Below, piece after piece: positions 2,546 to 62,188 of a stretch of DNA of 64,000 nucleotides. This DNA is from Mytilus galloprovincialis (Eukaryota; Mollusca; Bivalvia; Mytilida; Mytilidae), in the NCBI RefSeq assembly GCF_965363235.1, contig NC_134846.1, forward strand, positions 29,646,218 to 29,710,217, read 5' to 3'. The translations under genes and the position numbers were made by a program. Positions within the stretch are counted from its first letter, which is position 1. Every line of letters starts with the position of its first letter. Under the pieces are notes generated by a model. It ran no database searches and was not told where the DNA came from. It saw only the letters and a list, made by a program, of their open reading frames with translations.

Positions 2546-2790
2546 TTGATAATCGTCTAAAAAGACACAACAAAATTGACAAAATCCAGCTATTTAATCA
2601 GAGAATTTACATTCAATCGACTTCGTTCATTAAACGATATATTCAGGCGTGTAGCAAAGCAGAAAGATAAAACCGACACGATAAAGCTGTCAGACCATCA
2701 TTTCCAAATCCCTATCTATTCAATCGACTTTTTGAAAATTTTCACAGCTTTCGTTATATTTTACTATTAAGTTTAACTTCATAGAAACCA

Positions 2791-3712: not shown

Positions 3713-3713
3713 A

Positions 3714-34948: not shown

Positions 34949-37900
34949 CTAGAACAAAAACAATATACAATCTCAAAAAAGAAAATTTTGTTTGGAACAG
35001 AATTGAGACAACTTGAGATGGCAGATCAGCATTTCTGGTGGGTAATTCTGTATGAACTACAATTAAATATTCACTGTTTCGTCTTTTCTCACTTTTCTTT
35101 TTAGTGATTGTTTTGTGTACAATTCTATTTTCTATTCATTGATATCCTAGGGAACATTGCACAACCTGCATCGTATTATATAAACACTAACATGGAGAAA
35201 ATAAGATTTATTCTCGTGTATGGACAAACAAAAAAATAATGTAATCACACTGACACATCATGAAAATCTTGACCTGTAAAACATTCATCGGTGTGACAGC
35301 ATTACAATTGTTTACTGTGAGTGTACAATAAAATGAATCATTTGATGTACCAAAACAAATACATATCTAGCAAAACCAGTAATCATAATTTTACAAATAT
35401 ACCGGTATGCATGTACTTGGTGTATAAGAAGGCACTTTTGACATTGTATTATTTGCAAATACTTTTGACATTGTATTATTTATAAATACTATAATAAAAA
35501 CAAAATATCATTGTGCTAACATTAACATTCATTACGTTGCTGGTAAATACAAAACAATCATCTTGCACTTAAGTTATCATAACACAATGGAAACTAGGAT
35601 CACCCCATGTGATTTTGTTATGTTAAAGTTTCCGTAAAGTTGTCGTTTTTCATGTAGAATTTTCATGTATATCTAATTTGAAGCATTGGTCCTGGTGAGT
35701 AATTGATTAATTTGGAAACAAACGTAGATGACCACCAAAAAAAAAACCACATACATATATTGTTTTATATTGTCGAATAATTTCTTTTTTTCTATATTTC
35801 AGTATGTAACCTTAAAATTCAAAAGTCAAGGTGAAAGAAGAATGTTCATTAACTCCATGTAAGTCCCTAAATAATAAGTATATAAATTCCCGGGAAATAT
35901 GATTGAAACATAATTTACAGATTATGTCCTGTGAAGGTGCTATGGATCAAGAAGAACAAATATACTAACGTAACATAACCACTTCATTTATCACCATGTT
36001 TTTATTTTTGATCACATGTTTTTGTTGACCTATTTGTTTTGATATTATCATGTTTATCAATTCGATTCGATATTAATGGGTGCATTTTACATAGACAAAT
36101 ATAATCGTATAATATAATCAAAATGAGGATGTTAATTTGATGTATGCCTTTTTGTGCTTCTTCGTTACATTTGTTGTTTTTATAGTGATTAAGATGATAA
36201 CACAATGTTGACTGCTGTACCCCTATTTTTGACATTTTTACCTATTATGTCTGTTTGTTTTGTTCACGCATCGGTGACTATATAATGGAATTTGATGCGA
36301 CTGTCATACAAGTGAGAGGTTTAGCTAGCTATAAAACCAGGTTCAATCCACCATTTTCTACATTTGAAAATGCCTGTACCAAGTCAGGAATATGACAGTT
36401 CTTGTCCATTCGTTTTTGATGCGTTTTGTTATTTGATTTTGCCATGTGATTATGGACTTTCCGAATTGATTTTCCTCTGAGTTCAGTATTTTTGTGATAT
36501 TACTTTTTACATTGTTTAACAATTTGTTTTGTGTTTTACTGTTCATCGATTTGTTCCGGTGTTATCCTATTTGTCGATTTGTTTAAGTGTTAGCTTTTTT
36601 ATCGAATTATTCAAACAACGTTCTTACCGGATTGCGCCGAAAACATTATCAACGTGTCCTCAGGACAAGGAATCAATGTTATCATAGGAACGTTTGATAG
36701 CTGGTCGTCTGTAAGAGTGGCTTTGGCGTCTGTTTCTTCATTTTGTTTTTCTTCTGATTGACATAACTGTAATTCTGTTTTCGATGAAACGGTATGCATG
36801 TGTTCCGTTTCTGAAGCGAACACATTAATTTTTAATGCAAGACTATGTTTTCTTTTGCATAAAAATTGCATATAAACTAATACATGATTTTGATCTATAG
36901 AAGGACTTTTATATTATATAACCTTTACTTTATTATTTTAACAATAAGTCAACATGTTTTTTGTACAGTCTAGTAGCAATTGACCTTAAAAACACAACAA
37001 ATAATTATATTAATTCTTAAATTACTATTTAAAAATAAGAAGATATAGTATAAATGTCAATGAAACAACTATCCACAAGAGACGAAACGACGTTGACGTA
37101 ATCAACGTAATGTCACAGTGTGACCAATGATAATTTGGAAAAACCCTCCGCTTTATAATAAGCTATACAAGTAGTAGCACAAAAAACGAACTCTAGGATA
37201 AATACAAACAGGAGAAGTCAATTAAAACGCACAAAATTTAAAGATAAACATTAAGTATAATCTTTAAAAGGTTATGATGTAGCAAAATCGCAACAAAACC
37301 AAACAAAAAACAAAGACCTGATTAATGTACAAATTAATTAACAAAAACAAAATATGAAAGACAACGACCACCGACAACCAATTGATTTAAAAGTTCATAT
37401 TTCTCACTTGACACAGATACATACTAAAAATTTGCGATTCGGATCGTTCAATTCTCTCCTTTCTCTGTGGTTTGACTAACTTGTTTTGAGGTTTAAGTTA
37501 AACTATCGATTAGTTAGCGGATAATTGCTTACATTATTGACATTTACATGGAAAATGAGAATATTTAAAGGCTTACTTTGATATGTCTCTTTTAAGTATA
37601 AGAAGTCATCATCATCATCTGTATCAGACGTGTCAATTTCTTCATATTTGTCTTCAAATAATTTGTTGTCGCCTAGGAATGAAAAAAGAAACCGTTTTAC
37701 TAACGTAAACTACTCTAATATATCTACTTTTCTATTTTCCAGTTATAGAAAGCAAAGAAGAAACACTGGTTTGCCTTGTTTTATTTTAAGTAAACAGCAA
37801 CTTAAAGTTAAAGTTTACAAATTTCAAAATGTGGATTCCGGTTACTAATTCGTATAAGAAATATTTATGGCATCAGCTGAAAACTTTATTATATCTCAGT

Positions 37901-40900
37901 AAAATATAAACTGATCATTGAACAGCCAGCCCAGTAGCTCATTTCTTCAGTATAGGAATTACTATACGACTGTTTTACTACTGAGATTTCCTGTTATGAA
38001 ACTTTATAAAAGTATAAACTTAAGCAATATATCTTATTCGGGTTTAGTTGTAATTCCTTGTCCGTTTTAAATTATACTTTTGACCCTTTCAGAGTATATA
38101 AGCTCCCTAACGTTTTAATGGGGTATATTTTTTCAAATACTTTAGATGTGCTACAATGAATAGTAACTGTCCGTATTTCTCACAAACTCTACACAAATAT
38201 TTTTCTGTTTATTTTCTTTGTAACTGAAGTAAAATAGACAATTTAACATGAACACATTGATGAATTCCAGAATTATAAAGTTAAATCCTCAAACAATTGC
38301 AATATGAAGGTTAAGCTGGACTCCGAAATGTAAGACTCAGCTTTCGGGACACATATGCAAATTTAATTTTATCATCTATTCATTACTTGTGTAGGTTTTA
38401 AAATAGCAAAAATAAAATAGAATAAAATAAAAATACTTATTTTTAAATATGATTGGTTTTATCAACTGTTAATTCTATTTGCTTGCTCGTCTTTTTTTCT
38501 AATTGTTAGACGTTGTTATAATTCTGCAATAACTATTTAATTTCAGCAATGTTCTTTTTAAGTTTAAAGGAACACAAATATGCCGCATAAACAATCACCA
38601 GATTTTCAGTTTCACTAAAAAATCTACACAAATCAATCAAGTGTTTCAAATATTTACTGCTAATAAACATGATGATGAAACATAATCAGCACCAATCAAA
38701 CTAATGGTAGCTGCATGAAAATTATGGCCATAACACATATCCTACTCTATGACAAATAATAAATGGAAAAACATCAGCTGGTCGATTTATTCCTATATTG
38801 TTAGAAGACAAAAGTCATACAGGAATTATCACAAAACTAAAGAAAATCTGAAACCTAAGTCTCAACTAAAAACATACAAGCTTTTTGATAAAATAATTCA
38901 ATAAGTGTCGGCTTTATTGACTTCATTCCCCGTATCAATTCACAGATACAGTTAAATTTAATCTGCCTCCACATGACTGACATCTAGACTTTGATAAAAT
39001 GATCGTTTCAAAACGTTATTATAAGACAAACGAATTGATTTCAGTTTTCTCTTAGTATAATTTATTATTCTTTATAGCCGCATTTCAGTAGCACCTACAA
39101 ATAGACCATTTTCATATTGCCGACTTTTGACTCCGGGTTCTATAATTTTTCGACAGGTTACCTAATCCGTGGTAGGACATCATGTTACTCGTTCAACTAT
39201 TAGCAACAAAAGGAAATACAATCAAATATATATAATCCGTACAATTCTGGTTGAAAGTTTACTGTTTTTCCGATGATTTAGTCATGTAAAGAAAATTTCC
39301 AAACCTGTCAAAAGAATACGAAGTCCTGAATATGAATATGGTCTATTGAGTTTATAACTGTTTGTTGGTACGGTGTTACTGGTATACGTTTCCTGTTATA
39401 AGATTTTTACGAGGAAGCTTTTGCATCTGAGGGAACAAATAAAGAATAAATGTCTTTGTAATTTTACAAATGTCAATTTGAATTTGTTGACTGATATTGA
39501 ATATCTGTGTCACAAATAACCTCGGATATAATTCATATGTTCCACTTATCGTAACCCTATCCTCATATCCCGATTGGGATACCATCCAATGTGTATCACG
39601 TCTGAATGCAACTAGTTGATCAGGAACAACTTACCTCTCTGTTGTACTTGAATCCACTTCTATATTTGGCAAGTTATATTGTGCTCGTTTTGTGCAATCT
39701 TTAACTTATTCTATCTAAAGTGTTAAGTTTTTTATAACTTGTCTGATATACTAGTACATTTTTTTTCTTTTGAAATTATGATTTTTATTTTCCTATGGGT
39801 ATTTTGTTTCCTCCTTATATTATATACTTTTAACAAGCATGATACTCGATACTCACATATAGCTGAAGCGTCCGCTTCTTCATTTCCAAATCTGTTTTGC
39901 CTTAAGTTATTATTCCCGGCAGGATTAAGAAACCATCCTTCATCCATTTTACAAATTCCTGATACCCTGCAAGCCTTAACATAACATAAAATTTAAAAGT
40001 AGCTAGCATTATCTATGAAGGGAATTTTTTGCATAGGGTTTTACTTTTTTTCTTCAATACGGCAAGGGTAAAACATTGAGTGTATGAGAATGCTATTTCT
40101 ATTGTAATTTCAAACGATTATTTCTTAATTTAGAATGTGCAGTCTACACATGCATTTAGATTATAAAAAATCTAAAAACATCTTTGTTAATAATTAAAAC
40201 CAATGCATGTATATGTTACAGTGAATTTGTATAATCAGTGATTATGTAGAATCCCTGAAATTTTCAGAGATTATGTAGAATCACTGGCTAGTTGAGTGAT
40301 AATGTAGAATCCCTGAAATTTTCAGGGATTATTTTCAGGGATTATGTATAAACACTAGAAAAAACGTCAGGGATTCTTTATTTATAAAGAAAATGAATAA
40401 AAGTTAAATAATTTATTCTATAAAATCACATAAAAACATCATAATAAAGTAACAAAAATTGTAAAATGTTAAGCACAATATATCAAAATGATAATTTTTT
40501 TTTAAAGTTAGGCACACTATCTTAAAATGTTAAACACAATACTAGTATATTAAAATAATATGCTTCACATCTGTTTTACCACAATATCCACATTTTAAAA
40601 ATCCTTTTCCTGCACATATCGAATCAGATTTTAACGACACGCCTAAGAGAAATAAAAAGTTCAGTAAAAACATCTGAAGGTACACTCCCCCCCCAAAAAA
40701 TTTTTTAAAAAAAAAAATGTTTAAAAAATGGGAATTTGCAACCTTGAACCGGTTCGGGCAAGAAAGATACCATGTTTTGTGGTCAGGCAATATCCTTTTT
40801 CAAACTCTTTTTTGAACAATTGTCATTATGTTTTTTGAGTTTCCCTTTCCTTTTTTATCCTGTCGAATTGCTATGAGAATATTACACAAAATGCAAACTT

Positions 40901-43900
40901 CCTCTAAAATTTTGTTCTATTTGTCAATCCTAAGTTCTGCCTGTTTTTCTATACATTTAGATACCTAAGTTTTCACAGTTTGAATTTCTTGTTCTTTGAA
41001 CAAAAAAACCCATACAAAACAGTTGTTCCATAATCTTCTTCCCATTTGCTTTACATGTATCACAAATAACATGCTTATGGATTTAAGAAATAATTCATGG
41101 GGGCTTGAATATATCCATTTGACGCTGGCTTTTAATAAACAAACAATACATGTAAAGCAATCGCTATAAAGGGAATGTTAATATTATTAACTTCTCGAAA
41201 CCTTGTGTTAGTTATATCTATTAGATCATCCTCTGTGTTTAAAAGCAAAATTATTTCTTCTATCAAGGAAAATGAAAGAAACTTAAAATTATAATTTGTT
41301 TATATTAATTTTTTTTATCAAACAAAGGATCATTAAATTATTCATAATCCCTGAAATCATATTAGGGAATTTGTAGAATAATTATTAAATTGTTCAGTGA
41401 TTATGTAAAATCACTGGGCATTTTCAGGGATTATATATAATTACTAATGATTTTAGTGATTCTACATATTCCCTGAAAAATCAGGGATTCTACATAATCC
41501 CTGATTATACAAATTCACTGTAACATATATACAATACATGTATACTACAGTAAGTCCCGTGTGTATATTGCTACATTTCTTTACGAATCCATAACGAATT
41601 ATCAACAAGTTTAATTCTGTGTTTGCAAGGGGAAAGTTATGAATACTAAATAATTTTCATGTTTTGGGACATAAGTTTACCAATATTGATTTGATAAATA
41701 ATAAACAATCAGCACGTGCAAAATAAGTGAAATGATACAACGTTGTTCATTTTGTGAATTTAACATTGTAACAAGTGTTAAATGATTTTAGAAATAAGTC
41801 TTTCATGCTATGCTCAATTTCAATTTTAACATGATTAGGAATTATATTTAGATGTAAAATGGTAACAAATAGCATGCATACCTATGTGATAATGACCAAT
41901 GCAGTAGAACAGATACAGATTTGGGAGTTCGGTATTTTTGCTATTTTACTTTTTCATGAATAAAATTAGTTGGTTTTGGAAAGTTTGCCTGTAACTGTAT
42001 AAATGATATTAATAACGGGATGTTCTCACTAAACACCAAACTATAATGTTATCTTTACCTGAATGAAAAATAATTTCGGTTTACCACGGAGACCTTCACA
42101 ATTGTCATTACTGAAGATGTCTATCAACTCGCTAGTCTTAACAAGGTCTTTTTCTAAATTGGTAGTCTTTGTCTGTGTATGATTGGTATCATATTTTACA
42201 CCACCCATGATATGTTGTTCTCTTGTCAGGTATGAATCGTGGAGGCTTGTTCCGGTTTGTTCCTCCTGACCATGAGAGGCTATTACACATACAAAGCAAT
42301 CCGAATTTTTATGACACTTTTTTTTAGCGACTGTAAGAAAAATATATATTACTGTTATGAACTCTTTTTTGCATATAATATAGTAAAACTTTGTCAAACC
42401 TGAGTACACTTGTATTGACAGTTGCAGTTGTTATTTGTTATCAGAATTGGAAGTAGGATTTACACAACGGGTAAAATCGTAAAATCAAACGAAGCATTTT
42501 TATATTTAGTCAGAATATTGTCTATTTCGTTAAATCATTCTTTAACACTAAATGTTAAAAGGTGCATGTTTTGGCCAGACTTACAGAAAAAAAAATTAAA
42601 ACATGGTGAATTTTCTTCTTATCTTGCTATCAAGTTTATGTTTTATAGGACAAACGGCACCCAGAAGTTTTACAGGTTTACTGTTTGTTAGTTGAATCAA
42701 TAAGTTTCTCATTGTCGGTTAAAAAAAATCTTTTATAATTCTGATTCGATGTTTTCACAATCGTTTAAAGGGGACAGAATTGGGGGTGGCGACAAATGGA
42801 ATATGGCAGCCGATATTATAATCGATAACCGTCAACCAGACTATAATTTTGTCCATAAAATAATAGAATAAAAATGTGATCATATTTTAAACAAATAGTT
42901 TAAACCGCTAGGTGTATATTATCTAAAAGCAAGACCGTGATAAGTAAGTGGATATGTAACATGTGTAAGTATCATCTGCCTATGATTCTCATTTCAACAA
43001 TGATAATTTAATACCATATAATTCTGTTAATTTTATTATATTATTCAACCACAATGACTCATGTAGAATTTATTTTACACATTTTTCTTTGTTTTGTTAG
43101 ATTTAGCATTCCTGATGATGATAAATTCGGTAAGGAATTTCATACGTTCTAAATACATCAACGAATCATATAATTTAGAACTATTTACCCCAAGTTTTGT
43201 TTGAAATTGGCTCAGTTGTATTAGAGGAGAAAATCTATGAAAAGTACACGTCAAGGAACACTAAAATACGGAAGATTCCAGAGCTATAAGATCGTAGGGT
43301 CTCGTCCAATTGTCTTGACGGAAATCGAAATCGAAATTTTAAAGATATTGTATTTTGATAAATGATTATTTTTGTTGTTAAAATTAATTAATTAATTACC
43401 TATTTTTTATTTTGAGATAACACTTAAACAAGCAAATCAAATTGTCTTTTCATGACATTAGTTCCTTTACGAGACATCAGATTTTGATGCAAACAGGATT
43501 TATATTCCGTTTTAATTATAAGCGTTTTTGCCTGCCTCGTCAGATTTCAATATTTATTACAATCTGCATGTCATAAGACAATAAATGCATTTTATTGTGA
43601 TGTTATATTTTAATCATCATAGACATGTTTTTTTCACTGAACTAAAAATCAGAAAAATTATACCATTATCAATTACCATCCTTTGTTTGATTGAAATGTG
43701 TCAGAAGTTTCAGAGATGTATATTTTTGAAAAGTTGTACAAATGCTACAAAATAAGTACAATTTTTTTTTATAAAAGATAGGAGAAAGTTATCAAATGGA
43801 CATTCACAACCTGGACATTTACAACCACAAATTAAAGCCTGATTTCACAGTTACTAGACCTTCCACTGGTCTAAATTGAAAAATTGTGTACAAGAAAAAT

Positions 43901-46900: not shown

Positions 46901-49730
46901 CTGTCAGTTAGACATGTACACCTTACAGTCCTTCTATACACCAAATATACTATACCTTGTTGTTATGTGTTATCGTAACTGAGATGTGTACTTAATCACC
47001 AAAACTTAAGGATTATGTACCCTTATGTTGATTCAATGCTAAACATATGGAAATTTTATAGAAAATCCACAGCCTTTATCCTTGTACTGTGATATTTGGC
47101 AATTTGAGGACTGATAGATATAGGATAATTGCATGCAGTGCTAGCATCGATTTCCTTAAAACAAGTTTATTAATGTAGTTATTGGTTGAAATAAATAAAA
47201 ATATGGACCAAATCAAGTACACATTTTAAGGTGTGTTTGACTTTAGTGACTCAGCACGAGGTATTTTGGAATTTACAGGTTGGTTAGAACTTTTTGTAAA
47301 ATATAAACACTAGCACATCATAGAAAAGCAAGTGAGTAATCTATGTTTCAAATTTTATAACAAAAATCTCTGTATTAAAGGCTGTGGATTTTCTATAAAA
47401 ATCTTGGTTTATTTGCCACAAAGTACTCTTTTTCTTTTAAAGGCAATGAAACAGTAAATTATAATGCATTCCATCAAGTTTCCCCTAGTATATGTACAAA
47501 ATGGCCTGTCTCTATTATTCATTATATCTGTAGTTTTGATACAATTGATGTTTAAAAAATTTGTACAAAAATGGCTACAGAAGTGGTCATAAACCTTAAA
47601 GTCATATGAAACCAGTGAGTGGTGAAAAATAATGTTTATCCAATTCTTGAACCAATGCCTGTATATATCATAAACTTAGAACTCTGTGCACGATTTTGTC
47701 ATTTTTTACGCAAATATATCGTATAATCGTCAATTTTTTTTTCTCTCTGTCTGTTATGATTTAACAAATATGGCTGCTCATTAAATGCCGTGTTTAAAGT
47801 CGAAGATTACCGATTGTCACCTTATAGTGAACAAATAACAAAAAGCATGGGAATTGAGCACGTGTTTAACATGTACAATCAGATAATTGTTTATTTTAAT
47901 GACTGATCCATGTGTATTGCGATCGCCGGATTTTTACGAGGAGGGTTACGCTCAGGTCACTATGCTGCTGCATACTGAAAATATGTCGGCGAATTGCTTC
48001 CTAGAAGCAAGCAATTAAAAATAAATAAACTTCTTCTAAATGTGGACAAATTAAAGAATTTTCCTCAGAAAAAAGTATAAGTACATAAGTTGTATAATGA
48101 AAACTATCCATTTAGTTATAAAAAACATATGCATGATTTTTTTTTAATTTGAGGTTTCTTATGACTTTAACCTAATTCACTGATCTATGAAATGAGGCCG
48201 AGGTCAAGTGAAAAATGTCCGACGGGCATAAGGACCTTGTAAGGTACGCACATACCAAATATAGTTATCATATTACTCATAATATGAGAGAAATCAACAT
48301 TACAAACAATCTTAACTTTTTTCAAGTAGTCACTGAACCATGAAAATGAGGTCAAGGACCATGGACAAATGACAGACGGAAACTTCGTAGCATGAGACAT
48401 CTATATATAAAGTGTAAAGCATCCAGGTCTTCCACCTTTTAAAATATAAAGCTTTAAAGAAGTGAGCTAACTCCGCCGCCGCCGCCGCCGCTGTCGCCTT
48501 ATCCACAGCCGCCGGATCACTATTCCTAAGTCGAGCTTTGTGCGACAAAAGTCGCAGGCTCGACAAAAAAGGATAAACTAAGATTTTTTTTTACAAAATT
48601 TAATTATGGATACTATCTTATGATCATACACAAGCTTCTGTGAAAGTTTGGTAGAAATCCAGGATTGTTTCAGAAAGTAATTAAAATTTCAAAAACTTTA
48701 ACCACGAGTGAATATTAGTGGACGACTCCGACGACAGAATTTAGGATCTCTTTGTCTCGATTTGTCTGGCTTTTTGGTCAAAAGACGCAGGCTCGACAAA
48801 AATCACAAACTTTATACTAGATATTACCAATGTTATTTCAACCAGCCGGTGGAGCTTACGTTTTAATTTGCATAAGGGCAGTCTATTTGAAGTAGCGTAT
48901 GGTAAGGATGATGGCCGTTATAATTATAATTGATTTCTAATCACCTATCAGTGTCACAAAACTAATATACAAATGTACCGATTGTATGATATGGGACGAA
49001 TAACTGAAAACTTTTATTATTGATGAGTTTATCCTGAAACACCTGTCTATAGACAGACTGGTCTTCAATGTGCAAACTGGTTAAACCCCGCCCAGTCAAC
49101 CGAAATAAATCAAGTAATGCCTCTTACATATATACTTGATTGGACATATTTTACACACCAAATCAGTTGCAGTAAAAATATTAGATTGTCTGATATTAAA
49201 TCAGAAAAGGATAATGTTAATTGAAAATATGACACTTCACTTCATAAAGAGATGTAGGATGAAACCACTGCAAACAAGGATAACTTGCAATTGGAACTAA
49301 CCAAGTTAAAATAACTATTTTGGTCAAATTCAACATCCGATCTCTATTTTGGTCTATAGATTTTCTTCCATTATGGTTACCTGATTTATATCCAGCAAAA
49401 ATATGTTGATTTGTTTTAAACAAAGGAGTTACATACACCAATGAATGGCAAATACTTACTATTGACATGCGTGAAGTTCTATGTTTTATATCAAAGAAAT
49501 TAATTTTTCTTACTGTCTTTTGCTTTATTACGCATCTGTTCCGCTGTTTGATCTCTTAATGAACAAATCTTAAATCCTAAGCTCTTAAAGACTTTCTTCA
49601 TACGTTTGTGATCAACTGTATCTCCATTTCTCTTATGGCTTTTATCTTTGAAATTTTCATTGTGTATCAATAAAGCAATGCCTCTTTCTTTCATGTCGAA
49701 GTTATAAGAACTGTTATCTGAAGAGTCCAT
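34659..49730 (-). CDS. Caspase 1: effector-type caspase, six exons, ~391 aa
   Basis: A cysteine protease of peptidase family C14A. Exons: 49514-49730, 42059-42330, 39857-39974, 37577-37672, 36628-36810, 34659-34948; joined length 1176 nt with one stop. Substrate Arg of S1 in KRNG (exon 1), catalytic His in IASHG (exon 2), GKPKLFFIQ at the exon 2 end joined to ACR (catalytic Cys) at the exon 3 start, p10 with PCPEDTLIMFS, FAVRS and SPGTFIHCLNKEVFF. The N-terminus has only ~9 residues before YNFDMKERG, so no CARD or DED is visible, as in executioner caspases. A possible acceptor (ttcttttttag) just before ACC ATG leaves room for an upstream exon. Odd points: ACRV not ACRG, no Trp in the S2 motif, an insertion after the active His, and a ~110-residue linker. 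Expected to be a cytosolic zymogen activated by cleavage in the linker. Catalytic competence is likely but untested. Confidence 0.88.
36240..36520 (+). repeat. Interspersed repeat copy (TGATGCGTTTTGTTATTTGA family)
   Basis: Reads 'tgtttgttttgttcacgcatcggtgactatataatggaatttgatgc' through 'aatccaccattttctaca', 'cctgtaccaagtcaggaatatgacag' and 'gagttcagtatttttgtg'. Best preserved copy in the window. It lies in the last intron of caspase 1, opposite to the gene. Confidence 0.8.
36628..36810 (-). CDS. Caspase 1 exon 5 (linker end and p10 start)
   Basis: Acceptor gtgttcgcttcag|AA (A+AA = Lys), donor TCCG|GTAAGA; phase 1 on both sides. The linker part contains QNEETDAKATLTDDQ, a candidate cleavage site (EETD then Ala). 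The p10 part VPMITLIPCPEDTLIMFS corresponds to the IPxEADxLxAYST strand of caspases. Confidence 0.87.
37040..37450 (+). repeat. Interspersed repeat copy (GATGTGGTATG family, diverged)
   Basis: 'aatgtcaatgaaacaactatccacaagagacgaaa' and 'gaaagacaacgaccaccgacaacca' correspond to the start and end of the 23740-24005 copy. Located in the intron between caspase 1 exons 4 and 5. Confidence 0.6.
37577..37672 (-). CDS. Caspase 1 exon 4 (acidic linker)
   Basis: Acceptor ttttttcattcctag|GC, donor CAAA|GTAAGC; phase 1 on both sides. Encodes a highly acidic segment with the core IDTSDTDDDDDF, matching IETSDTDDDEDF in caspase 2. It sits in the p20-p10 linker, where activating cleavage at Asp occurs in known caspases. 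Confidence 0.85.
39857..39974 (-). CDS. Caspase 1 exon 3 (catalytic Cys)
   Basis: Acceptor tatgttaag|GCTTGCAGG supplies ACR right after FFIQ, giving IQACRV. The last residue is normally Gly. Ends TCAGCTATAT|GTGAGT, phase 1. After the Cys the sequence (SGICKMDEGWFLNPAGNN) is unlike the usual linker. The Gly to Val change next to the active Arg is visible and mirrored by Ile in caspase 2. Confidence 0.85.
40216..41523. mobile_element. 1.3-kb TIR element with CCCTGAAAATT subterminal repeats; transposase remnant on minus strand
   Basis: Ends TTACAGTGAATTTGTATAAT (40216) and ATTATACAAATTCACTGTAA (to 41523) are inverted, followed inward by repeated 'agggattatgtagaatcactg' words in both orientations. 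On the minus strand, 40728-40808 reads GYCLTTKHGIFLARTGSRLQ and, in another frame, 40580-40630 reads ICAGKGFLKCGYCGKTDVK. These resemble the C-terminal Cys-rich tail of Ginger/KRBA2-type DDE integrase-like proteins (from memory, weak). It lies in caspase 1 intron 2. Confidence 0.65.
42059..42330 (-). CDS. Caspase 1 exon 2 (catalytic His)
   Basis: Acceptor tttttcttacag|TC joins phase 1 (A+TC = Ile), donor CAG|GTAAAG, phase 0. CFVCVIASHGQEE holds the catalytic His, and RGKPKLFFIQ is the strand before the active Cys. Between them are about 60 residues where caspase-3-like enzymes have roughly 30; the extra part is Thr/Asp/His-rich and polar. Confidence 0.9.
44095..44260 (+). repeat. Interspersed repeat copy (GATGTGGTATG family)
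   Basis: 'gaagatgtggtatgagtgtcaatgagacaagtctccatctaa', then 'ggtctttaacacgaagctttggctcacaccgaacagtaagcta' and 'agggccccaaaacatactagtgtaaaacc'. In caspase 1 intron 1. Confidence 0.8.
44560..45520 (+). repeat. Pearl-like array I: two unit types, (GAC)n, terminal hairpin
   Basis: About three ~130-bp units (with 'aatctaaatacatggtta') are followed by about three ~160-bp units (with 'tgttgggacc..aactcccaaaatcaat', 'ttttgtggtcata.acctt'; starts near 44963, 45128, 45287). Then comes a GAC triplet array (about 45414-45463) and a terminal inverted pair TATACGACC...GGTCGTATA (about 45479-45517) followed by A's. The core-repeat plus microsatellite layout fits the bivalve 'pearl' elements. The Arg/Ser-run open frames here are read from the microsatellite. 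Confidence 0.8.
47054..47400. mobile_element. Insertion with perfect 25-bp inverted repeats
   Basis: TTTTATAGAAAATCCACAGC at 47054 runs 25 bp and is repeated exactly in reverse complement at 47376-47400 (GCTGTGGATTTTCTATAAAA). The 297-bp interior has no open frame. It is part of the block that splits pearl-like array II. Confidence 0.8.
47600..48166. mobile_element. MITE with TTAA target sites
   Basis: Inverted ends AGTCATATGAAACC (left) and GGTTTCTTATGACT (right) are flanked by TTAA on both sides (47596-47599 and 48167-48170). TTAA duplication is characteristic of piggyBac-type elements. No transposase frame; non-autonomous. Inserted into pearl-like array II. Confidence 0.75.
49514..49730 (-). 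CDS. Caspase 1 exon 1 (p20 start)
   Basis: Begins ATG at 49730 in a good context (ACCATGG) and ends at GACA|GTAAGA. Encodes YNFDMKERGIALLIHNENF, then HKRNGDTVDHKRMKKVFKSL, the first beta strand and helix of the p20 fold with the S1-pocket Arg before the NG. This aligns with the 'RGxALIINN..F....RxGT..D...L...F..LGF' pattern of caspases. Confidence 0.88.
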
Positions 49731-49884: not shown

Positions 49885-50075
49885 ATGGATAAAGATCAAA
49901 CTTTGCATCGGATTAATGTTTATAGTGACCGGATTTTACATGCGCGTTTTCCCAATTTAAATCGCTCATCAATGGAGTATAGATTAAACCAGATTCAAGG
50001 ACTAATCAAATACGAAGTTGAAGAGTTGTTAAAGCACATATATCGGAAATGGAAAACCCCTTGTGACGAAATTAG
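49885..50075 (+). CDS. Candidate first coding exon of a divergent plus-strand gene
   Basis: ATG in a good context (aaacaATGG) opens 63 codons plus two bases ending at a strong donor, ATTAG|GTAAGG (phase 2). The product begins MDKDQTLHRINVYSDR and includes RLNQIQGLIKYEVEELL, helical and polar. I do not recognise it and found no following exon in the window. It starts 154 bp from the caspase 1 ATG on the opposite strand. It could also be a chance frame. Confidence 0.35.
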
Positions 50076-50089
50076 GTAAGGCTGTATAT

Positions 50090-52650: not shown

Positions 52651-52659
52651 CCATTTAAT

Positions 52660-53590
52660 TGACTAAGGAACCATGAAAAAGCTGTCAAGGTCAGATGAAC
52701 CATACCAGGCAGGCATATAGAGCTAAAAAGTCTTCCATACAACAAATATAGTTGATCTATTGCTTATAGTTTAAGAAAAACAGGCCAAAACACAAAAACT
52801 TAACACTGAGCAATGGACCGTGAAAATGAGGTCAAGGTCAAATAAAACCTGCGTGACTGATATATGTATCATAAAATATTTCCATACACCAAATATAGTT
52901 GACCTATATTGCATATAATATTAGAAAAAAAGACAAAAACTCAAAAACTTAACTTTGACCACTGACCCATGAAAATGAGGTCAAGGTCAGACACCTGCCA
53001 GCTAGACATGTACCCATTACAATCATTCCATACACCAAATATAGTAGACCTACTTGCATAAAGTATAAGAAAACAGACCAAAACACAAAAACTTAACTAT
53101 ATCCACTGAAAAATGAAAATGAGGTCAAGGTCAGATGACACCTGCATGCTGGACATGTGAACCTCACAGTCCTTCCATACACCGAATATACTAGACATAT
53201 TGCTTATAGTATCTGAGTTATGGACTTGACCACCAAAACTAAAACCTTGTTAACTGATCCATGAAATTAGGTCGAGGTCAAGTGAAAACTGTCTGATTGG
53301 CATGAGGACCTTGCAAGGTACGCACATACCAAATATAGTTATCCTATTACTTATAATAAGAGAGAATTTAACATTACAAAAAATCTTAACTTTTTTTCAA
53401 GTAGTCACTGAACCATGAAAATGAGGTCAAGGACATCGGACATGTGACAGACAGAAACTTCGTAACATGAGGCACCCATATACAAAGTATGAAGCATCCA
53501 GATCTTCCACCTTCTTAAATATAAAGCTTTTAAGAAGTTAGCTTACGCTGCCGCCGGATCACTATCCCTATGTGGAGTTTTCTGTTCAAT
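52660..53590 (+). repeat. Pearl-like array III (~145-bp units)
   Basis: Six units with 'gaaaatgaggtcaaggtcagatgacacctgc' spaced near 52685, 52826, 52975, 53118, 53268 and 53415. It ends with 'aagaagttagcttacgctgccgccggatcactatccctatg', as array II does, but with the triplet run and terminal hairpin mostly lost. The last two units match 48181-48470 in order. Confidence 0.85.
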
Positions 53591-53599
53591 TAAAAACTT

Positions 53600-55530
53600 G
53601 TATTAGAAATTAATCAGTTGCCCATTTGCATTATTGAAAGTATAAATAAAATCAAAGCTTAGGATCACAAACTGTTTTTTTGGTATACCTCCAGATGGGG
53701 AGACGTCAACGTATATGATACGGTTGATGCGTCTTTAAATGACCAACCTTCGATAATAGTATGTCAATCAACCTAAACTAATATCATAAATTTACAAAAT
53801 GTACATATTTCATTAAATTTTATTTATATAACAAAGCTGTTTTGTGTAAATAATCAACATAAAACTATTAAATTAACAGAAATATTAGCTTAATTTACAA
53901 CTTTAATCAGTGGAGCATGATCCAAAACAACCAACAAAACCTAATATGTATTTTGACTATGCAGATGTAGAATCAGTTCAGATCTATTTATATAAATATA
54001 TATATTGTTTTACCAGTCATATATGGTTGAATCAGAAATGTATGAGTTGTATTTATAACTGCATGGTTTTGCTGAATTCAATATTTAAACATGAGATCAA
54101 ACATACATATAAAGGTTCCTTATCAATCAGAAAATGTATTTATATTAAGGTATTACTGTTCTACCATCCTGACCCTCCATCAACCTAAAAATATGATGAG
54201 TTTGCTTATTTATAATTAGTTCAGCTCAACAAGTACGGTTTTGTAAACTAATAAAAGTTGTAATTCACAAATTTCTAAATCTACCAACATATTGCTTTGA
54301 ATAATCTCAGAATAATAACATATCATAGAGCAGTGAGGTAAATTTTCATTAGATCATATATCCATACAAGAGTCAACCAATTGTTTGATAATATTTTAAT
54401 GTTTGTATGTTGTATAACAATACTTGTTAAGAAAACAATTTTATCAAAAATACATAAATTAATGTAGTTTAACTACAATTGAAGACATATGGAAGATAAC
54501 TCAACTTCAAAAACGTGTTATATAGGTGTTACATTGCAATAGATATACAAAGATTGGACCAATTTAAGTAAAAATTACTTAACTTGCCACCATGCTAGAG
54601 GTCTAAATGTGTAATATTTTAATAAATCATCCATTGAAATTCAAGTTGTAATACATAGTTATCTTTATAAACAGTTGTTTTCTTAACTATTTAATTTCTT
54701 TTTTCTGGTTTGATTCATCTGACACAGTATACAATCTAGTAAGTATATCTTATTTGAATTGGTTTATGTCGCATGTTTCAATGCAATATGTTCAGTCAAT
54801 TAGGAAAATCAACAATTTAACCCTCCAAAATAGTAGCCAAGGGAGTACAACTAAAACTATGTCAAAAAGATTACAGTGTTTAATTTTAAGTTCAAATTGC
54901 AAAATGAATGCAATCTTTTGCTTTCATTGCGATCAAGTTCTTTGATAAAGTATATGTCTGGGGAATTGCTTTTTACATAACAATGTTAAATTTGACCAAT
55001 CTGTAGAAAAATATATTATTTTTAAACACGCTTCTTTTGAAGAAAAAGAAATAATTTGTTTTCTTCCTTCACATATCAAATAGTTTGAGTCAAGTTATTC
55101 AATTCATAAAAATAAATTATGTAAAAAATACACATAAATACAAAGCTAACATCATTAAAAAATATAACTATTTACATTTAACAATTCATGTGATTGTAAT
55201 ACATTGTACTGAAAAGTAATAGAAATAAATGTACATGTATGATCACTATCAATTTTTTTTAATATCTATTCTTTATTTTTCATACTTTAAAATGAATGTG
55301 TAATGCTTAAAAACAACAACAACAAAATCAATGCCCATTTCATGAAAATTAAATAAATATTTTTTTTACATATTAAATTTATTTCACTACCAACTATTTA
55401 TTGATATATATATTTTAAAACTAATATGAATAAATTGTTATCACAGAGATATGTCTCCCCTGTAAATAAATTTGATTATGCAAATGTTGAAATTAAAATT
55501 GCAATACTTTAACATGTAATTTATGTAAAT
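53600..55530. other. Non-coding intergenic stretch
   Basis: AT-rich, no recognised repeat or gene. Short plus-strand frames at 53910 and 54754 lack splice support and domain content. Confidence 0.5.
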
Positions 55531-55534
55531 AGTC

Positions 55535-56560
55535 AAAGTCAATGAACCGTGACTGAAGGTACATAGCCAAAAAGTATCCACAGAAATGGGATGTGCTAAT
55601 GCTTATACAACTGAATACCAATTAAAATTGGCCTGCTACTAAATTATGGTTTCCCTTGAACTCACCTAATCACAAACTAATACATGTCACACAACACTGA
55701 GAGACATTCCCCGCCCAGACACAACACAATAATCACATTCTTATGAATTATAATACATGTGTAAACTAACCAAAGATTTCAAAGTCAATTGATCATGACT
55801 AAGGGGGCAGAGCTAAATCATCTCCATGAAAATGAGATATGCCAATGCTTATACAACTGCATACTAAATATCATTGACCTACCACTAGTGGTTCCCCATA
55901 AACTTACTTAATCACAATGTAATATACATGTACACACACAAGTTTAAAAGTCAATAGACCATGACTAAGGGGGCATGCCCAAATAAACTCCATTGAAATA
56001 AGATCTGCCAATACTAACAAACTGCATACCAGATATTATTTACCTACCACTTGTGGTTCAACATAAACTAGACCTAATCACAAACTTATACATCAGAAGC
56101 AGATACAGATAAAGATCTTCAAATGGAGATTTTTTTTAAAGTCATGGAACTTTATGCTTACATTCATTAACATGTGTAGTGGCTGGTAGCAGAATATTAT
56201 TTCTTACATGTTTTGGGTCAAAAATTATTTTTTTCTATTTTAAAGAGGCTCACCAAGTGTTAACACCTGCTTATGCATCTGTAAATAAGGAAGAAAACAA
56301 TGTTTCCATAGACCGATGCAACACTCTCACTTAAATATGTAATGTTCAGAGGACCTCAAAATTTAGGTCAAAACTCTAATTTGGCATTATTTTAGAAAGA
56401 TTTTGTCATAAGGAACATGTGTACTAAGATTCAAGTTGATTGGATTTCATCAAAAACTACCTTGACCAAAACTTTAAACAGAAGTGGGACAGACAGACAA
56501 AGAGATGGATGAATGGACAGACAAATGGATACACAGACATGCCTAGGTGGGGCATAAAAA
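55535..56560 (+). repeat. Pearl-like array IV with GACAGACA microsatellite
   Basis: Three long imperfect units starting near 55535, 55784 and 55945 ('agtcaat..accatgactaagggggca', 'cttatacaactgcatac', 'cctaatcacaa'), then unique sequence and a degenerate tetranucleotide tract 'gggacagacagacaaagagatggatgaatggacagac' (about 56485-56525). Same core-plus-microsatellite layout as the other arrays with an unrelated core sequence. Confidence 0.7.
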
Positions 56561-57072
56561 GTCACATACAAAGAGATGTAAAGGATTTCACTTTGAAGCA
56601 GAACCAAGAGCTTTTGATGCAGCTGTAGAATTATCTAAAAAAAATCCTGAAACTTTAACAGATAGGATTAACTGAAATGTGTTTTTTATTTCAAGGTTGA
56701 TATTATTATTTTGGTTTGAACTTCCTGTTAATGAAATAACAAAAGCCCTTAATTTAATCCTTTGATGATTTGAACATCTGACAGGTTTTTAAATGCCTCT
56801 TATAAAATAGGTATATAACTAATGGTCAATATTTAAAGAAGTCTAATTTATTGACTCATTGCATATAAAACTGAATGGAAATGATGTGTTTTGAAAGATT
56901 TTATCTAAAGTTCCCAATAGTCTACTGACCAACATTATTTTATATTTCCTAGCAGTTTTTTTTTGTGCCCCACCAATAAAAACCAAAAAAAAAACAGCCC
57001 TTGATTTACAAATGAGTATTAAAACCAACTAAATATCAAATATATATTAAAAACATATATTCCTATTCTGAT

Positions 57073-57374
57073 TTATCTTTTAAAAAGTTTTGAAAATGAA
57101 AATGTTCTTTTTGATTTTTTTGTAGTAAAAAATACTTGTTCTGTTAGGCAATGAGTTATGCAACCAGGAGAAAACCTTCCTTCTAAATTTTTTGTATTAC
57201 TTTTTTCTCCAGGGCTATATGTTTCCAAGCTCATACAGGTTAAAATCTCTGTCAAAATATACAGGAAGTCAATGTTTTGAAAGCTGTCAAGATTTCCTGT
57301 ATAAAACTTAAGTTGCTGGTAAAGCTTGTTGAGTAACCAACTACCAGCTGCAGGGCTTCGTATAGCAAAATTTC
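57073..57374 (-). CDS. Caspase 2 terminal p10 exon
   Basis: Acceptor tatcatttcag|GA. Encodes GNFAIRSPAAGSWLLNKLYQ, then FLYILTEILTCMSLE and RFSPGCITHCLTEQVFF with a Lys-rich tail, stop at 57073. 302 nt against 290 in caspase 1. GSWLLNKL is closer to the canonical GSWFIQSL than the copy in caspase 1. Confidence 0.88.
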
Positions 57375-60300
57375 CTGAAATGATAAAATAAAAAAATAGG
57401 CCATTTTCAAAAAAGCAAGTTCATGCTGACACATTACTGAAAGAATTTTTGATTTTCATATTATACATGTACAGTCCTTCCATTTCGTTATATTTTTAAT
57501 GTGTAAAAATTTATGATTTACATGGATATATCTCATGTTTATCTATAGTACACAGGATATTGCAAATGTTGACATTCATTGATCCAAATACCAGAGGTAA
57601 ATGATGGTAATGATATAGAAAAGTTCTTGACTAGATATTTACTGTTATTATACTTCGGTCAAAAGACCAGAATTTGATTAGTTGATAGGAGGGAGACAAT
57701 TTACTCTATTCCATGGAAAATACTCTATTACCCTTTATGAGACATGTGTGATCAAGTGTTCACTTTATTAAACAAATGATTGTTATGCACAAGATGTCAT
57801 AGTGTTTTACTTTGAATTTGAAGTTAAAGACGGTAATAACAGAACATTCAGTATAATAAATTAAATAATATATAGCTGTGAGGGTGATAGAGCAGATTGT
57901 AACCCCTTGAAAAGACTGGTCAACCTTGGCTTCGCCTCAGTTGACAATGTTTTCTCAGGTAACAATCTGATCTATCACCCTCTCAGCTATGTGTTATTCA
58001 TATATTGTACTGACATGCTTTTCAAATCAGGAGTCTGTGATTCAGTGGTTGTTGTTGGTTTTATACAGGGTTTCCGCTGGCGGTCGCCATTTTCGCAATT
58101 TGCGAAGAAATAAAAATTGTGCAATAAAAATTCGTCATTTGAGAAAGAATTTGGCGAAAGAAATATATATAACGATTTATTTTCCTCCATCTTGTTTATT
58201 TACTTTTTTTTCCGAGTTTCTCAGACTTTTCCCGATTAGACAATACTTGGAATTCACCTTGACCTCATTAAGATTTGGACAGAAAATAATAGTCAGCTAA
58301 TTGCATTTTATAGCTATCGACAACAAAGGACTAATTAATAAAGGTGTTGATTGAATTGTTTGACAAAATGATATGGTTAAATGGCTTCCGCTAAATGTCA
58401 CATACAGAATTTATTTACCACTTTGCGACACACGTGTTGGAAGCAAACTTTTGACGTCTCCTCTCCTTTTAAAGATAGTTAAGAAAAGAAAACTCTTGTT
58501 GTGTCGAACAATGTTCAAAAGCCAGAAAAATCGCAGATTTAAAACTTTAATTATGGTATTTGATTAGGGAGACTACTTTTAAGTCGTTTGAGTGACATGT
58601 GTTTCAAGCATAGTTTTACATCTCAACTTTTTCATTTACAATGGTCAAGAAAAGAAAACTGTCATAATGAAGAAATCTATCCAAAAGGTTGGAGACAACC
58701 CCTCGAATGCAAGTAACCCTTCAATGGTATGACTACACATGAAATGAGGGATCAATTTCATGAGATAAAAGCTTTTGTTTTGTTGTAAAAACCACTTCTT
58801 AGTACAAAAGGGCACATCAGTATTTTTCTTTGAAAGAAACTTTCCCTACGAACTATACTGGTATTATATGATCAAAACATTTCCATTAATTTTGTTATAT
58901 CCAGGACTTATATCTTCTTTATTATTAAAAGTATAGTGGCCCCCTCATTTAGAAAAGTTGTTTAAAAATCAATGAATATTTTTCCCTTTTAAGTTAAAAA
59001 AAATTCTGTTGTTTTAGATAAATGTTTAGTGTTTATTCATTAAAATGTAGATTCTAATAAAATAAGTTTAAGGGAATAATCATAGAGACAATGGGGCAAA
59101 ATCATCTTATTTAAGGGAGGGGGGGGGGTTAGAAAAAAGGTAAATTTTAAACAAAAAATATATTTGTTACTTGGCGAAAAAAATAATAAAGTGGCGAAAA
59201 ATATATTGTTTTTGCGAAAGAGGTGGTGAAAAAAATAATTGACCCAGGAGAAACCCTGGTTTTATACCTTACTTTGGGCTATTGACTTTGCTCATTATTG
59301 AATATCTCACATATAGTTGCTTACATCCATGTCATTTGATCTCTGGGCTCTCTGGGGCAGATCTCTGGTGACCCAGAGACCGAATGACATGGATGTAAAA
59401 ATCCAAGGGGATGAGGCTGAAGGCCAGATCTCCTATGGATTTTATTCATCCTCGATGGTACCTAAGGGGTCAGTAGTCAATCATATAATGAATTTATCGC
59501 ACAAGGGACTTTTCTGCTCAATGTGTAGGAAAAAAAACAATGAAACCCAACAACATTAAAAGATGATGTCACCATTAACGGTAGACCTAAATGAACCACT
59601 TATGAAATTTACTTCCCCCTAGGGAACAATTAGGGGTCACCACATGACAATGTGATAAATTACCTATGGTTTAAATAAAATGAAACAAGTTTTGATTGGT
59701 TGAGGCAGCTGATATGGCTTGGGGGAACATGACCCTCCTGAAGGAACTTCAGCAATCCTAGTCAATTAAATTTTGATACAAACTTTTATCAAAATATACA
59801 GAATAAAATGCATCTGAGCTGTATCATTTCATGTTAACAAATATGTTCATGTTTTGGTATTCACAACAGAAATCTCTGGGATCAAATCAGAAAATTAAAA
59901 CTGCAGGTGCACAGCTCCTTGTCCTGTAGAAAATCTATGCCTTCCAAAATAAGTGTAAAATAATACAAACCTGATGTTGAGGCAAACATAATGAGTGTAT
60001 CTTCTGGACACGGTACTACTGTAACCATGGGAACAACATAATCATCTCTCCTTACAGAAGGTTTAGAACCTTTGGCATCTACTTCTTCAGTTGAAGGTTT
60101 ACTGTCATTTTTTCTAACCAATTTTTTAACGTCTAATTCATCTTTATGTGCTGAGGTTTTTGTTTTGTCTATAGAAACAATTTGCTGATTTGTTTTAGCA
60201 TTCACAGGCACATCTATCTTGGAAAAACCACTGCCTACACTGACGCTAACACTGTCCTCATCTGGCATTATTCCTTTAGCATCCACTTCCTCACTTTTTT

Positions 60301-62188
60301 TTCTTCGTATCCTCTTTTCAGATTCTAATCTCTGTTTGGGATGACTTTCTTTTGACAAATCTGCATCAACTTCTATTTAATATCAATAGAATACAATTAC
60401 TTAAAATTTGAAAAGGATTTTTTGGAGACCTAGTATCATATCTGTTATATTTAATTTTAACTGCTAAACACTAACTGATTGATTGATTGATAGGTGTTTT
60501 ACGCAACATTAAACAATATTGTGCTATTCCGAGGGGGTCAGTTTTTATTGAAGGACAAAGCCAAAGAAAAAATCCATTTATCTATAAAATACAGCAAATA
60601 AGAGAAATATATTTTCAAATTTTTACTTGAAATTTTATTTCTTTATCATATAAAAGCTTCTGCCAAAGTTTCTTACAAAAAAACTCTAGACAAATTTATT
60701 CTGAAATGAGTTGACACCATTTAATCATGCTTCTCCGACCATGTAATATTTTCTTTAGCTTCTAGAACACTTGCCATAAAAAATTCATGATTAAGTTTGA
60801 TACAAATGAAAAGGATTCACATAATTTTTATGCATATATAAAACTAAAAAATTGGTAAACAGTTTTCAGAAGAAGCAACTGTTAACCTAAAAAATTGTCC
60901 CATCTCTGTCAAAGTGGTGACAATTATTGATGCCATCACTGCCAGTAACAGCTAGATTCAGGCTGCTTTGAATTTTGTCACAGGTGTGATAAATTGTTTT
61001 ATACATACTTTGCAACTTGGCTCTCAACTCTGCAAAGTCTTCATCATCATCTGTATCTGATGTCTCTATATCTTCCTCATCTTCATCACTGTCATCTGAT
61101 TCGTCAACTGTTTCATCTTCAGAGTCTTGCTTCTCACTTGTAGCTCGTTCTAAAAATAAAGTAAATGACAGTTGTGTAAAAGAAAGATGAAAGAAACAAA
61201 AGGAACATTCAATCTCATAAGTTAGAAATAAACTGAAAATGCCATGGCTAAAAAAGACAAACAGGCAAACCACAGTACACAAAAAACAACATAGAAAACT
61301 AATAACTGAGTAACACAAATATTGTTCTGAATAAAGTCAGAGAAGAGAGATAATCCATAAAAGACTATTTGCCAATGGTAATGCAATCAGAGGTCCTTCC
61401 AATTGCACAAGTTTTTTACTTTGTGCGGGTCAAAACTATTTCATTGTTAATAAAAAAAAATTTAAAAGGTATTAAAAGTTTTAAATCTTTGAATTACAAT
61501 TTTTGAATTAAATATTTTTTAAACTTTTAGTTTTTTTATATTAAAAACTGAAAGAAAAAAACAGACCATTTTGTCTGCTACCATCTAATGGACCTTAAAA
61601 CAAAAATTACATAAATGTGTCAAATCAAACTGTCAATAAGAATGGAAGAAACATAACCATATCCCTTCTGTGCAACACACAAGGGACAAAAAGCCTTAAG
61701 ATTGGCAGGAAAAGTAGTGTGCTTGCGTTCTTATCTAACATGATTGGTTTGCCAAAACATTTAAATGAACTCAAACTTAGGCAATAGTAAAATGAATACT
61801 GTGGATTCATTTATTTTTGTTTGAGGAAAACTTGCCTAATGTGGATTTTTAATTTCATGGTTTTTGTATAGTCTGCATACATTCCTTTGGAAAACTTGTT
61901 ATTCGTTAAACATTTTATATTGAAATCATGGTTCCCCATTATTCATGAAATCTACAAAAATTGGTATCTAACAAATATTAATGAATCCACAGTATAATTT
62001 AAATTACAATACTGTGACTAAAAAAACATTATTCTTCATTATTTACCCTGAACTGAACCATCTACCATATGTTTGGCTTTTGTCTTCTTTTTCTTCCTTT
62101 TCTCCATGTTTTCCTCTGTTGTGATGCCAATCTCCAGTCCTTTATCCATTCCTTCAGAACTGCCTCTATATCTTCCTATTCTGCATGC
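57073..62188 (-). CDS. Caspase 2, 3' part (catalytic Cys to C-terminus), four exons
   Basis: Tandem duplicate of caspase 1. Exons: 62047-62188, 61009-61149, 59971-60372, 57073-57374; 987 nt in frame, 328 residues and a stop. It starts with ACRI (phase 0, as in caspase 1 exon 3), so the His-bearing p20 exons must lie beyond 64000; none is seen between 62189 and the edge. Phases and exon roles match caspase 1 one for one. The linker is much longer (about 200 residues), with a basic stretch (KRKKKKTKAK), an acidic exon and three VDA-containing motifs. p10 is well kept: PCPEDTLIMFA, FAIRS, GSWLLNKLY, SPGCITHCLTEQVFF. No stop or frameshift in the visible part, so it is probably active as a gene. 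Confidence 0.85.
57872..57990. repeat. Hairpin in caspase 2 last intron
   Basis: ATAGCTGTGAGGGTGATAGA at the left pairs with TCTATCACCCTCTCAGCTAT at the right, continuing through 'cagattgt.acc' with a few mismatches; a second inner stem involves 'tggtcaacct' and 'cagttgaca'. No coding content. Confidence 0.8.
58066..59258. mobile_element. hAT-type non-autonomous element, 8-bp target duplication
   Basis: Inverted ends CAGGGTTTCCGCTGG and CCAGGAGAAACCCTG (13 of 15 matching) are flanked by GTTTTATA at 58058-58065 and 59259-59266. An exact 8-bp duplication and CAGGG termini are typical of hAT elements. Interior 1.19 kb with 'ggcgaaa' words near both ends and no hAT transposase frame that I can identify. 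Located in the last intron of caspase 2. Confidence 0.85.
59322..59399. repeat. Short hairpin
   Basis: ACATCCATGTCATTTGATCTCTGGG (59324-59348) pairs imperfectly with CCCAGAGACCGAATGACATGGATGT (59373-59397). It lies in the last intron of caspase 2, just outside the hAT-type element. The 80-codon plus-strand frame across it is taken as chance. Confidence 0.8.
59971..60372 (-). CDS. Caspase 2 expanded linker and p10-start exon
   Basis: Acceptor tgatattaaatag|AA (weak tract) and donor ATCAG|GTTTGT (less usual), yet both phases fit and the frame is open throughout. 402 nt against 183 in caspase 1. The extra length holds VDADLSKE, SEEVDAKGIMPDEDS and TEEVDAKGSKPS, an apparent internal duplication. 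Ends VPMVTVVPCPEDTLIMFAS, the p10 first strand. Confidence 0.82.
60473..60560 (+). repeat. Short interspersed repeat fragment (TGATTGATTGATTG start)
   Basis: 'actgattgattgattgataggtgttttacgcaac' resembles the opening of the repeat at 7172. It lies between caspase 2 exons in the intron after the acidic exon. Confidence 0.5.
61009..61149 (-). CDS. Caspase 2 acidic linker exon
   Basis: Acceptor actttatttttag|AA (G+AA = Glu), donor CAAA|GTATGT; phase 1 both sides. Reads RATSEKQDSEDETVDESDDS, then more Asp/Glu, then IETSDTDDDEDFAEL. The IETSDTDDDEDF core is shared with caspase 1 (IDTSDTDDDDDF). Confidence 0.87.
62047..62188 (-). CDS. Caspase 2 catalytic-Cys exon
   Basis: Acceptor ttttctgttacag|GCATGCAGA gives ACRI (Ile where Gly is usual), donor CAGG|GTAAAT, phase 1. 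Downstream the exon encodes RYRGSSEGMDKGLEIGITTE and a Lys-rich patch KRKKKKTKAK resembling a nuclear localisation signal. The patch has no counterpart in caspase 1 exon 3. Confidence 0.85.

Follow-up and report, generated by a model that had tools for sequence, protein, structure and literature searches.

Repeated EExDA motifs in the long intersubunit linkers of a tandem pair of predicted executioner caspases from Mytilus galloprovincialis

Why would an executioner caspase join its large (p20) and small (p10) subunits by a linker of one to two hundred residues that holds the same candidate cleavage motif twice? The question is raised by a 64,000-nucleotide stretch of the Mytilus galloprovincialis genome (29646218-29710217 on contig C9 of G000, within a 1.385-Gb assembly), here called the window; feature positions are counted from its first letter. 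It is predicted to carry two tandem minus-strand caspase genes of executioner type, denoted c1 and c2. Bivalves have unusually many caspases, and the accessible text of one survey describes expansion of their caspase genes with tandem copies (PMC10967218). The at least 143 PF00656 matches in the present genome (among the best 150 of 191 candidates scored) fit that description. We favour, with a probability of about 0.55, a reading in which c1 and c2 are tandem executioner caspases with a long, charged and removable linker, combining an inherited site next to p10 with upstream sites for a second trim. The account is built on the predicted gene structure, the motif, its position and excess over chance, the shared acidic exon and the longest linkers measured; disorder, cleavage, the order of the cuts and a lower dependence on cleavage are what we infer.

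Linker length and the repeated motif

From QACR to VPM the c1 linker measures 108 residues and the c2 linker 204, in agreement with the ∼ 110 and ∼ 200 given by an earlier, sequence-only reading of this DNA. The catalytic Cys is separated from the Asp of PEDTL by 121 (c1) and 217 (c2) residues, compared with 29 in human caspase-3; the c1 length depends on the splice acceptor before 36810. In 20 other linkers of the same genome the distance from Cys to the p10 Asp ranges from 24 to 99 residues (median 40.5), exceeding 30 in 15 and 60 in seven of them. These comparators are the loci with a directly readable linker exon and, being chosen in this way, are not a random sample; they include a probable pseudogene, c4 (99 residues). 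The distance in L052 (34) was measured by hand. Outside the 20 stand L050 and L051, whose exons are unparsed, and 17 unmeasured caspase loci, partly overlapping in the genes they cover, in which the linker is intron-split or unparsed (L001-L008, L020, L023-L026, L029, L030, L032 and L035). Among the linkers measured in this genome, those of c1 and c2 are the longest. The earlier comparison with the ∼ 25 residues of caspase-3-like enzymes overstates their oddity in this genome, where long linkers are common. A series of Cys-to-p10 distances from 24 to 217 within one genome is natural material for the effects of linker length and site number on zymogen activity.

A second long-linker group was seen on contig C12, where four caspase linkers (L041-L044; Cys to p10, 77-80 residues) have a conserved Asp-Ala site of their own, F[CSY]TD↓AHS[FY] (arrows mark candidate cuts), 14 residues ahead of the p10 Asp.

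Each linker holds two copies of the motif EE[VTA]DA: EEADASA and EETDAKA in c1, and EEVDAKG twice over in c2. Four copies were reached in none of 100,000 composition shuffles (shuffle mean 0.005), and the level observed for the looser pattern [DE]ExD[AGS] was reached in only two of 100,000. Repetition of the motif in this tandem caspase pair is a real, non-random feature. SEEVDAKG and TEEVDAKG of c2 and NEETDAKA of c1, all named in the sequence-only reading, are found in the translations, and its notion of several candidate sites per linker holds for both genes; NEEADASA, in the QACR exon of c1, is a fourth copy that it had not listed. The VDADL it assigned to c2 is present, but the spliced form reads QKVDADL and is thus without Glu at P3 or P4.

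As a coding pattern, EEVDAK occurs at five places across the 1.385-Gb genome, two of them inside one c2 exon, while the control pattern read backwards occurs at 15. A lone EEVDAK is therefore unremarkable, and the unusual part is the presence of two inside one exon. The remaining three places (non-caspase pattern places are labelled L036-L038) are near no PF00656 match among the matches listed. A text search of the accessible literature for EEVDAK, EEVDAKG and EETDAK returned one paper, which is unrelated.

The p10-proximal site, the acidic exon and the gene models

The copy nearest p10 lies 24 residues before the p10 Asp in c1 (NEETD↓AKAT, 36719..36739, minus strand; identified by motif, flank alignment and position) and 26 in c2 (TEEVD↓AKGS, 60068..60088, minus strand; motif, genome pattern search and position). 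In L019, a gene of this genome of canonical caspase-3/7-like type (QACRG, GYYAWRN), NVAD↓AKGE precedes the p10 Asp by 21 residues; in human caspase-3, IETD↓SGVD precedes it by 17. Among shuffled L019 linkers, 0.2% contain DAKG and 2% contain DAK. The 30 residues that follow the proximal copy align between c1 and c2 with a score of 88, matched by none of 5,000 shuffles; no such alignment is seen for any of the five remaining pairs of downstream flanks (2,816 to 4,867 of 5,000 shuffles as high). Because the register to p10 is the same in c1, c2 and L019 and the downstream flank aligns, the proximal EE[VT]DAK copy is likely to be an inherited, ordinary maturation site. The earlier suggestion that an Asp preceded by Glu-Glu and followed by Ala is a plausible cleavage site is likely to be right for this copy, which is non-random and stands at the canonical processing position. 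Eight of the 20 comparators have an Asp-Ala pair somewhere in the interval 10-30 residues ahead of the p10 Asp.

Both genes divide the linker among three exons, of which the middle one is acidic and conserved (EIDTSDTDDDDDF in c1, DIETSDTDDDEDF in c2); none of 1,000 shuffles aligned as well as this exon pair. The word TSDTDDD is common to the two acidic exons, and a common word of seven letters arose in one of 3,000 shuffles. Elsewhere the c1 and c2 linkers align just beside p10; for the QACR exon 100 of 1,000 shuffles were as good. The acidic exon could be skipped in frame. A search of the genome with the c2 linker exon gave two matches among six candidates, c2 and c1 themselves. Both linkers are probably disordered, as suggested by charge-hydropathy scores of 0.27 and 0.23 against -0.12 and -0.19 for the p10 parts.

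In c2 the basic, nuclear-localization-signal-like stretches KRKKKK and KRIR flank a very acidic block (exons 62047-62188 and 59971-60372, minus strand). This block, with a net charge of -15 in 20 residues, was equalled in none of 20,000 shuffles; neither the c1 acidic block (1,369 of 20,000) nor the c2 basic block (3,110 of 20,000) is extreme. Two sub-threshold Pfam hits in the c2 linker, BING4CT (21 bits, cut-off 23.7) and Cwf_Cwc_15 (23.6 bits, cut-off 30.4), were attributed to charged sequence of low complexity and set aside.

In c3 (L018, contig C2; p10 match 43% identical to c2), the closest intact paralogue found, a single exon of 289 bp encodes the entire linker together with the first p10 strand, and the Cys-to-p10 distance is 85 residues; the c3 model starts MDVSNKG and is without a CARD-like prodomain. 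Several other genes of this genome likewise have linker and first p10 strand within one open frame. Given this undivided arrangement in c3 and the other genes, the probable change in the ancestor of c1 and c2 was the gain of an exon or of two phase-1 introns. Much of the architectural difference lies at the exon level, with three linker exons in c1 and c2 versus one in c3. Adjoining c3 on contig C2 (∼3.113-3.118 Mb) is c4 (L017), which has ACRG but is interrupted by two stops in frame; it is probably a pseudogene in the form of a decaying tandem copy.

By prediction c1 lies entirely inside the window and comprises 391 residues in six exons, all on the minus strand. Exon 1 (49514..49730; tblastn with the human caspase-3 sequence, and spliced model) holds the start codon (MDSSDNSSYNF, ATG context ACCATGG), early p20 (MDSSDNSSYNFDMKERG...) and the substrate-Arg region KRNGD. 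Exon 2 (42059..42330; PDB phmmer, Pfam PF00656 and model) continues p20 through the catalytic His (ASHG) to ...KPKLFFIQ; after SHG it has an insertion of ∼ 30 residues that human caspase-3 is not known to have and that is shorter in c2 and c3. Exon 3 (39857..39974; spliced model) carries ACRV with the catalytic Cys, the linker start and the upstream candidate site NEEAD↓ASAI (39861..39881; motif count and alignment). Exon 4 (37577..37672, phase 1-1; aligned with the c2 exon, phases) is the acidic module KYEEIDTSDTDDDDDF, and exon 5 (36628..36810, phase 1-1; model) holds the linker end and the first p10 strand. An alternative acceptor before 36894 would add 28 residues to c1 (149 from Cys to Asp) through an 84-bp stretch of 25% GC; as this stretch is intron-like in GC (introns 28-33%), we favour the acceptor before 36810 and keep the 36894 start as a less likely alternative. 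Exon 6 (34659..34948; tblastn and model) encodes the remaining p10 (GNFAVRSS...GGW) and the stop codon.

The c2 model of 475 residues combines the last four exons, inside the window, with two in the adjoining DNA (L016). The exons in the window, again on the minus strand, are 62047..62188 (model), with ACRI, the catalytic Cys and the basic stretch EKRKKKKTKAK; 61009..61149 (phase 1-1; model and exon alignment), the acidic module DSEDETVDESDDSDEDEEDIETSDTDDDEDF; 59971..60372 (phase 1-1; model and alignment), with both EEVDAKG copies and the first p10 strand VPMVTVVPCPEDTLIMFASTS; and 57073..57374 (model), with the remaining p10 (GNFAIRSP...GSW) and the stop codon. The upstream candidate site SEEVD↓AKGI is at 60272..60292 (motif and genome pattern search). 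The splice sites are GT-AG, and the phases 0-1, 1-1, 1-1 and 1-0 are identical in the two genes. The exon that the sequence-only reading called a 60-kb linker exon (60372-59971) does carry linker, but the first p10 strand is encoded there too. Its loss would harm p10 and not merely shorten the linker, so that transcripts without it would be no simple refutation. The p10 of c1 and of c2 ends in a short basic tail (SSRRRIKQMISGFFRNK, KSKRTFSFSKLFKR), which c3 is without and human caspase-3 is not known to have.

Both proteins belong to the caspase family by their PF00656 scores, 140.2 bits for c1 and 122.6 bits for c2 (curated cut-off 21.4). The best PDB match to c1 is 'Ancestral Effector Caspase-3/6/7', and its top matches are effector caspases. 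In an alignment with human caspase-3, the His (SHG)/Cys dyad, the Gln before the Cys and two substrate-binding Arg residues are intact in both proteins. No Pfam match of any kind, and hence neither CARD nor DED, was obtained at E<=0.01 in the three minus-strand frames of 49733-57072, a scan that covers the region upstream of c1 only; c1 is thus predicted to be of executioner type, with a short prodomain that has neither domain. No NCBIfam family matched c1, and a search of virus contigs with one query, the c2 p10 exon, gave 23 pattern-matching stretches and no relatives.

The window also contains retroelement-like open frames of the long interspersed nuclear element (LINE) type at 31086-33807 (plus strand). 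They include an endonuclease/exonuclease domain (PF03372, 31522-31866, plus strand; 25.2 bits, cut-off 24.5), a frame at 32339-32818 (plus strand) for which Pfam gave nothing and one at 33287-33610 (plus strand) that looks reverse transcriptase-like, judged by eye alone.

How the linkers might work

In the account we favour, the intersubunit linker became a long, charged and probably disordered insert that can be removed. A cut at the EE(V/T)D↓AK nearest p10 would free p10 with an Ala-Lys N-terminus, as NVAD↓AKG would in L019. The upstream EExD↓A sites (EEAD↓A in c1, EEVD↓A in c2) would allow a second trimming, by the protease itself or by an initiator caspase. The piece released would be the acidic segment for c1 and, for c2, the sequence bounded by its two copies. 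Linker length would make activation depend less on cleavage, as is reported for caspase-9, said to be active uncleaved (PMC5410359), and for procaspase-3 with a lengthened linker. Were cleavage less necessary with a long linker, the acidic exon would be left as a possible brake.

Several observations weigh against this account. EExDA is present in none of the 20 other linkers read, and since c3 and the other 19 are without it, the motif is not conserved beyond the c1/c2 pair. DAK occurs in just one of the same 20. The upstream copy of c1 lies in the QACR exon, that of c2 in one exon together with the proximal copy; being in different exons, the two are neither positional homologues nor an inherited pair, and may have been gained independently. 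As a test of disorder the charge-hydropathy score is crude, and c1 p20 is also slightly positive (0.07). Finally, the QACxG signature is altered to QACRV in c1 and QACRI in c2, and the position of the caspase-3 pocket Trp is Val/Ile in an alignment with the human sequence. With both the Gly of QACxG and the pocket Trp replaced by Val/Ile, activity of c1 and c2 is not assured. The departure from QACxG is no bar to caspase membership, because only 11 of 51 CASc domains of Mytilus coruscus retain it, according to the accessible text of PMC10967218.

The alternatives are not all mutually exclusive, and the weights we attach to them need not sum to one. It is possible, though we hold it only tentatively, that the p10-proximal site alone matters and that the long linker with its extra EExDA copies is neutral, low-constraint filler in fast-diverging tandem duplicates, in which case the pair would be an ordinary variant within a known protease family. 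Disordered linkers tolerate insertion, the lengths in this genome vary widely (24-99 residues in the 20 others), the c1 and c2 linkers align solely in the acidic exon and beside p10, c3 is without the motif and the upstream copies are not positionally homologous. Filler does not readily account for four EExDA copies far above chance, for an acidic exon common to c1 and c2, or for two c2 copies in which four of seven codons differ, all synonymously. The conservation of the acidic exon is what recommends a different and rather doubtful view, namely that the linker is an autoinhibitory lock whose acidic, DDD-rich exon holds the long-linker zymogen off, perhaps tuned by CK2 phosphorylation, much like the Asp-Asp-Asp 'safety catch' that Roy reportedly described for procaspase-3 in 2001. 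The c3 sequence GVDDDEE is close to human GVDDD, the c2 acidic block exceeds all 20,000 shuffles and there are CK2-like S/T-x-x-D/E sites, four in c1 and nine in c2. The c1 block, however, is not extreme; DDD is found in the c1, c2 and c3 linkers, but shuffling these linkers yields it in 16%, 36% and 12% of cases, respectively; and a literature search for the safety catch gave no relevant title among the matches listed.

Growth of the linker by duplication of a unit ending in EEVDAKG, to serve as a decoy or multi-site buffer, was the proposal of the sequence-only reading, and we consider it unlikely. Ahead of the two c2 copies the flanks show some similarity (score 38, 20 of 5,000 shuffles as high; 8 of 1,000 in another test), and an exact repeat as long as the longest in the linker, seven residues, arose in 10 of 20,000 shuffles. 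Downstream of these copies the flanks are unmatched (4,867 of 5,000), however, and neither c2 upstream flank alone resembles the c1 upstream flanks (2,739 to 4,311 of 5,000); a longer c1-c2 exon alignment extends some residues upstream of the proximal copy. The three-exon division of the linker, absent from paralogue c3, also speaks against such growth. Internal duplication is thus a weak candidate for the origin of the linker, and a decoy role is unsupported. Part of the apparent linker could instead be intronic, an annotation artefact to which we give very little credence: the exon structure is predicted from sequence, an alternative c1 acceptor exists and the c1 exon 37672-37577 is just 30% GC. 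Against this stand the GT-AG sites with the same phases in both genes, the protein words conserved between the paralogues, the 37-41% GC of the other linker exons compared with 28-33% in introns, and the 164-residue open frame of the c2 linker exon, the longest of 62 listed in the window.

Comparison with known systems

The ends that the predicted cuts would create recall two recognition systems. The consensus bound by inhibitor of apoptosis proteins (IAPs), A(K,T,V,I)(P,A,E)(F,E,I,S,Y) (PMC3972657), is not fully matched by AKAT, AKGS, AKGI or ASAI, each of which agrees at three of four positions by eye, as does the AKGE end of L019; the likeness of the Ala-Lys and Ala-Ser ends to the IAP-binding motif is suggestive at best. 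According to the accessible text of PMC11393453, Hsp70 binds CHIP via EEVD, and caspase-cleaved tau binds CHIP via a new EEVD-like end. By analogy, one piece of each cut would end in EEVD-COOH (EETD or EEAD in c1), as read by TPR proteins such as the ubiquitin ligase CHIP, and the other would begin with Ala-Lys or Ala-Ser, near IAP-binding motifs. It is thus conceivable, but highly unlikely in our estimate, that cuts at EE(V/T/A)D↓A mark both enzyme halves for recognition by ubiquitin ligases, and that one site after another serves as a timer on a zymogen that is active uncut. If true, caspase maturation would be tied directly to degradation signals.

Turning to whole enzymes, c3 differs from c1 and c2 in its single linker exon, its distance of 85 residues and its lack of EExDA. 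Human caspase-3 resembles them in the catalytic domain, in a maturation site just before p10 and in DDD after that site, but has a Cys-to-p10 Asp distance of 29 residues, compared with 121 and 217, and a single linker site. The linker of human caspase-9 presumably holds at least two Asp sites. This enzyme is otherwise alike in having a long linker and in being reported active uncleaved (PMC5410359), and its exposed small-subunit end, ATPF, binds IAPs (PMC3972657); it differs in that c1 has no CARD upstream in the Pfam scan and finds its best PDB matches among effector caspases. For caspase-6, two procaspase sites, DVVD and TEVD, are named together in the accessible text of PMC7586219, whereas the sites of c1 and c2 are EExD↓A and their linkers far longer.

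The closest likeness in kind is to bivalve caspase-3/7, represented by oyster Cg3/7, an executioner with a long intersubunit linker without which DEVDase activity reportedly does not reach its maximum (Li 2016, cited in the accessible text of PMC7836458). Neither multi-copy EExDA nor an acidic exon is mentioned in that text. Long linkers in oyster caspase-3/7 are already published; the repeated sites and the extra length of c1 and c2 would be a variation on this known kind.

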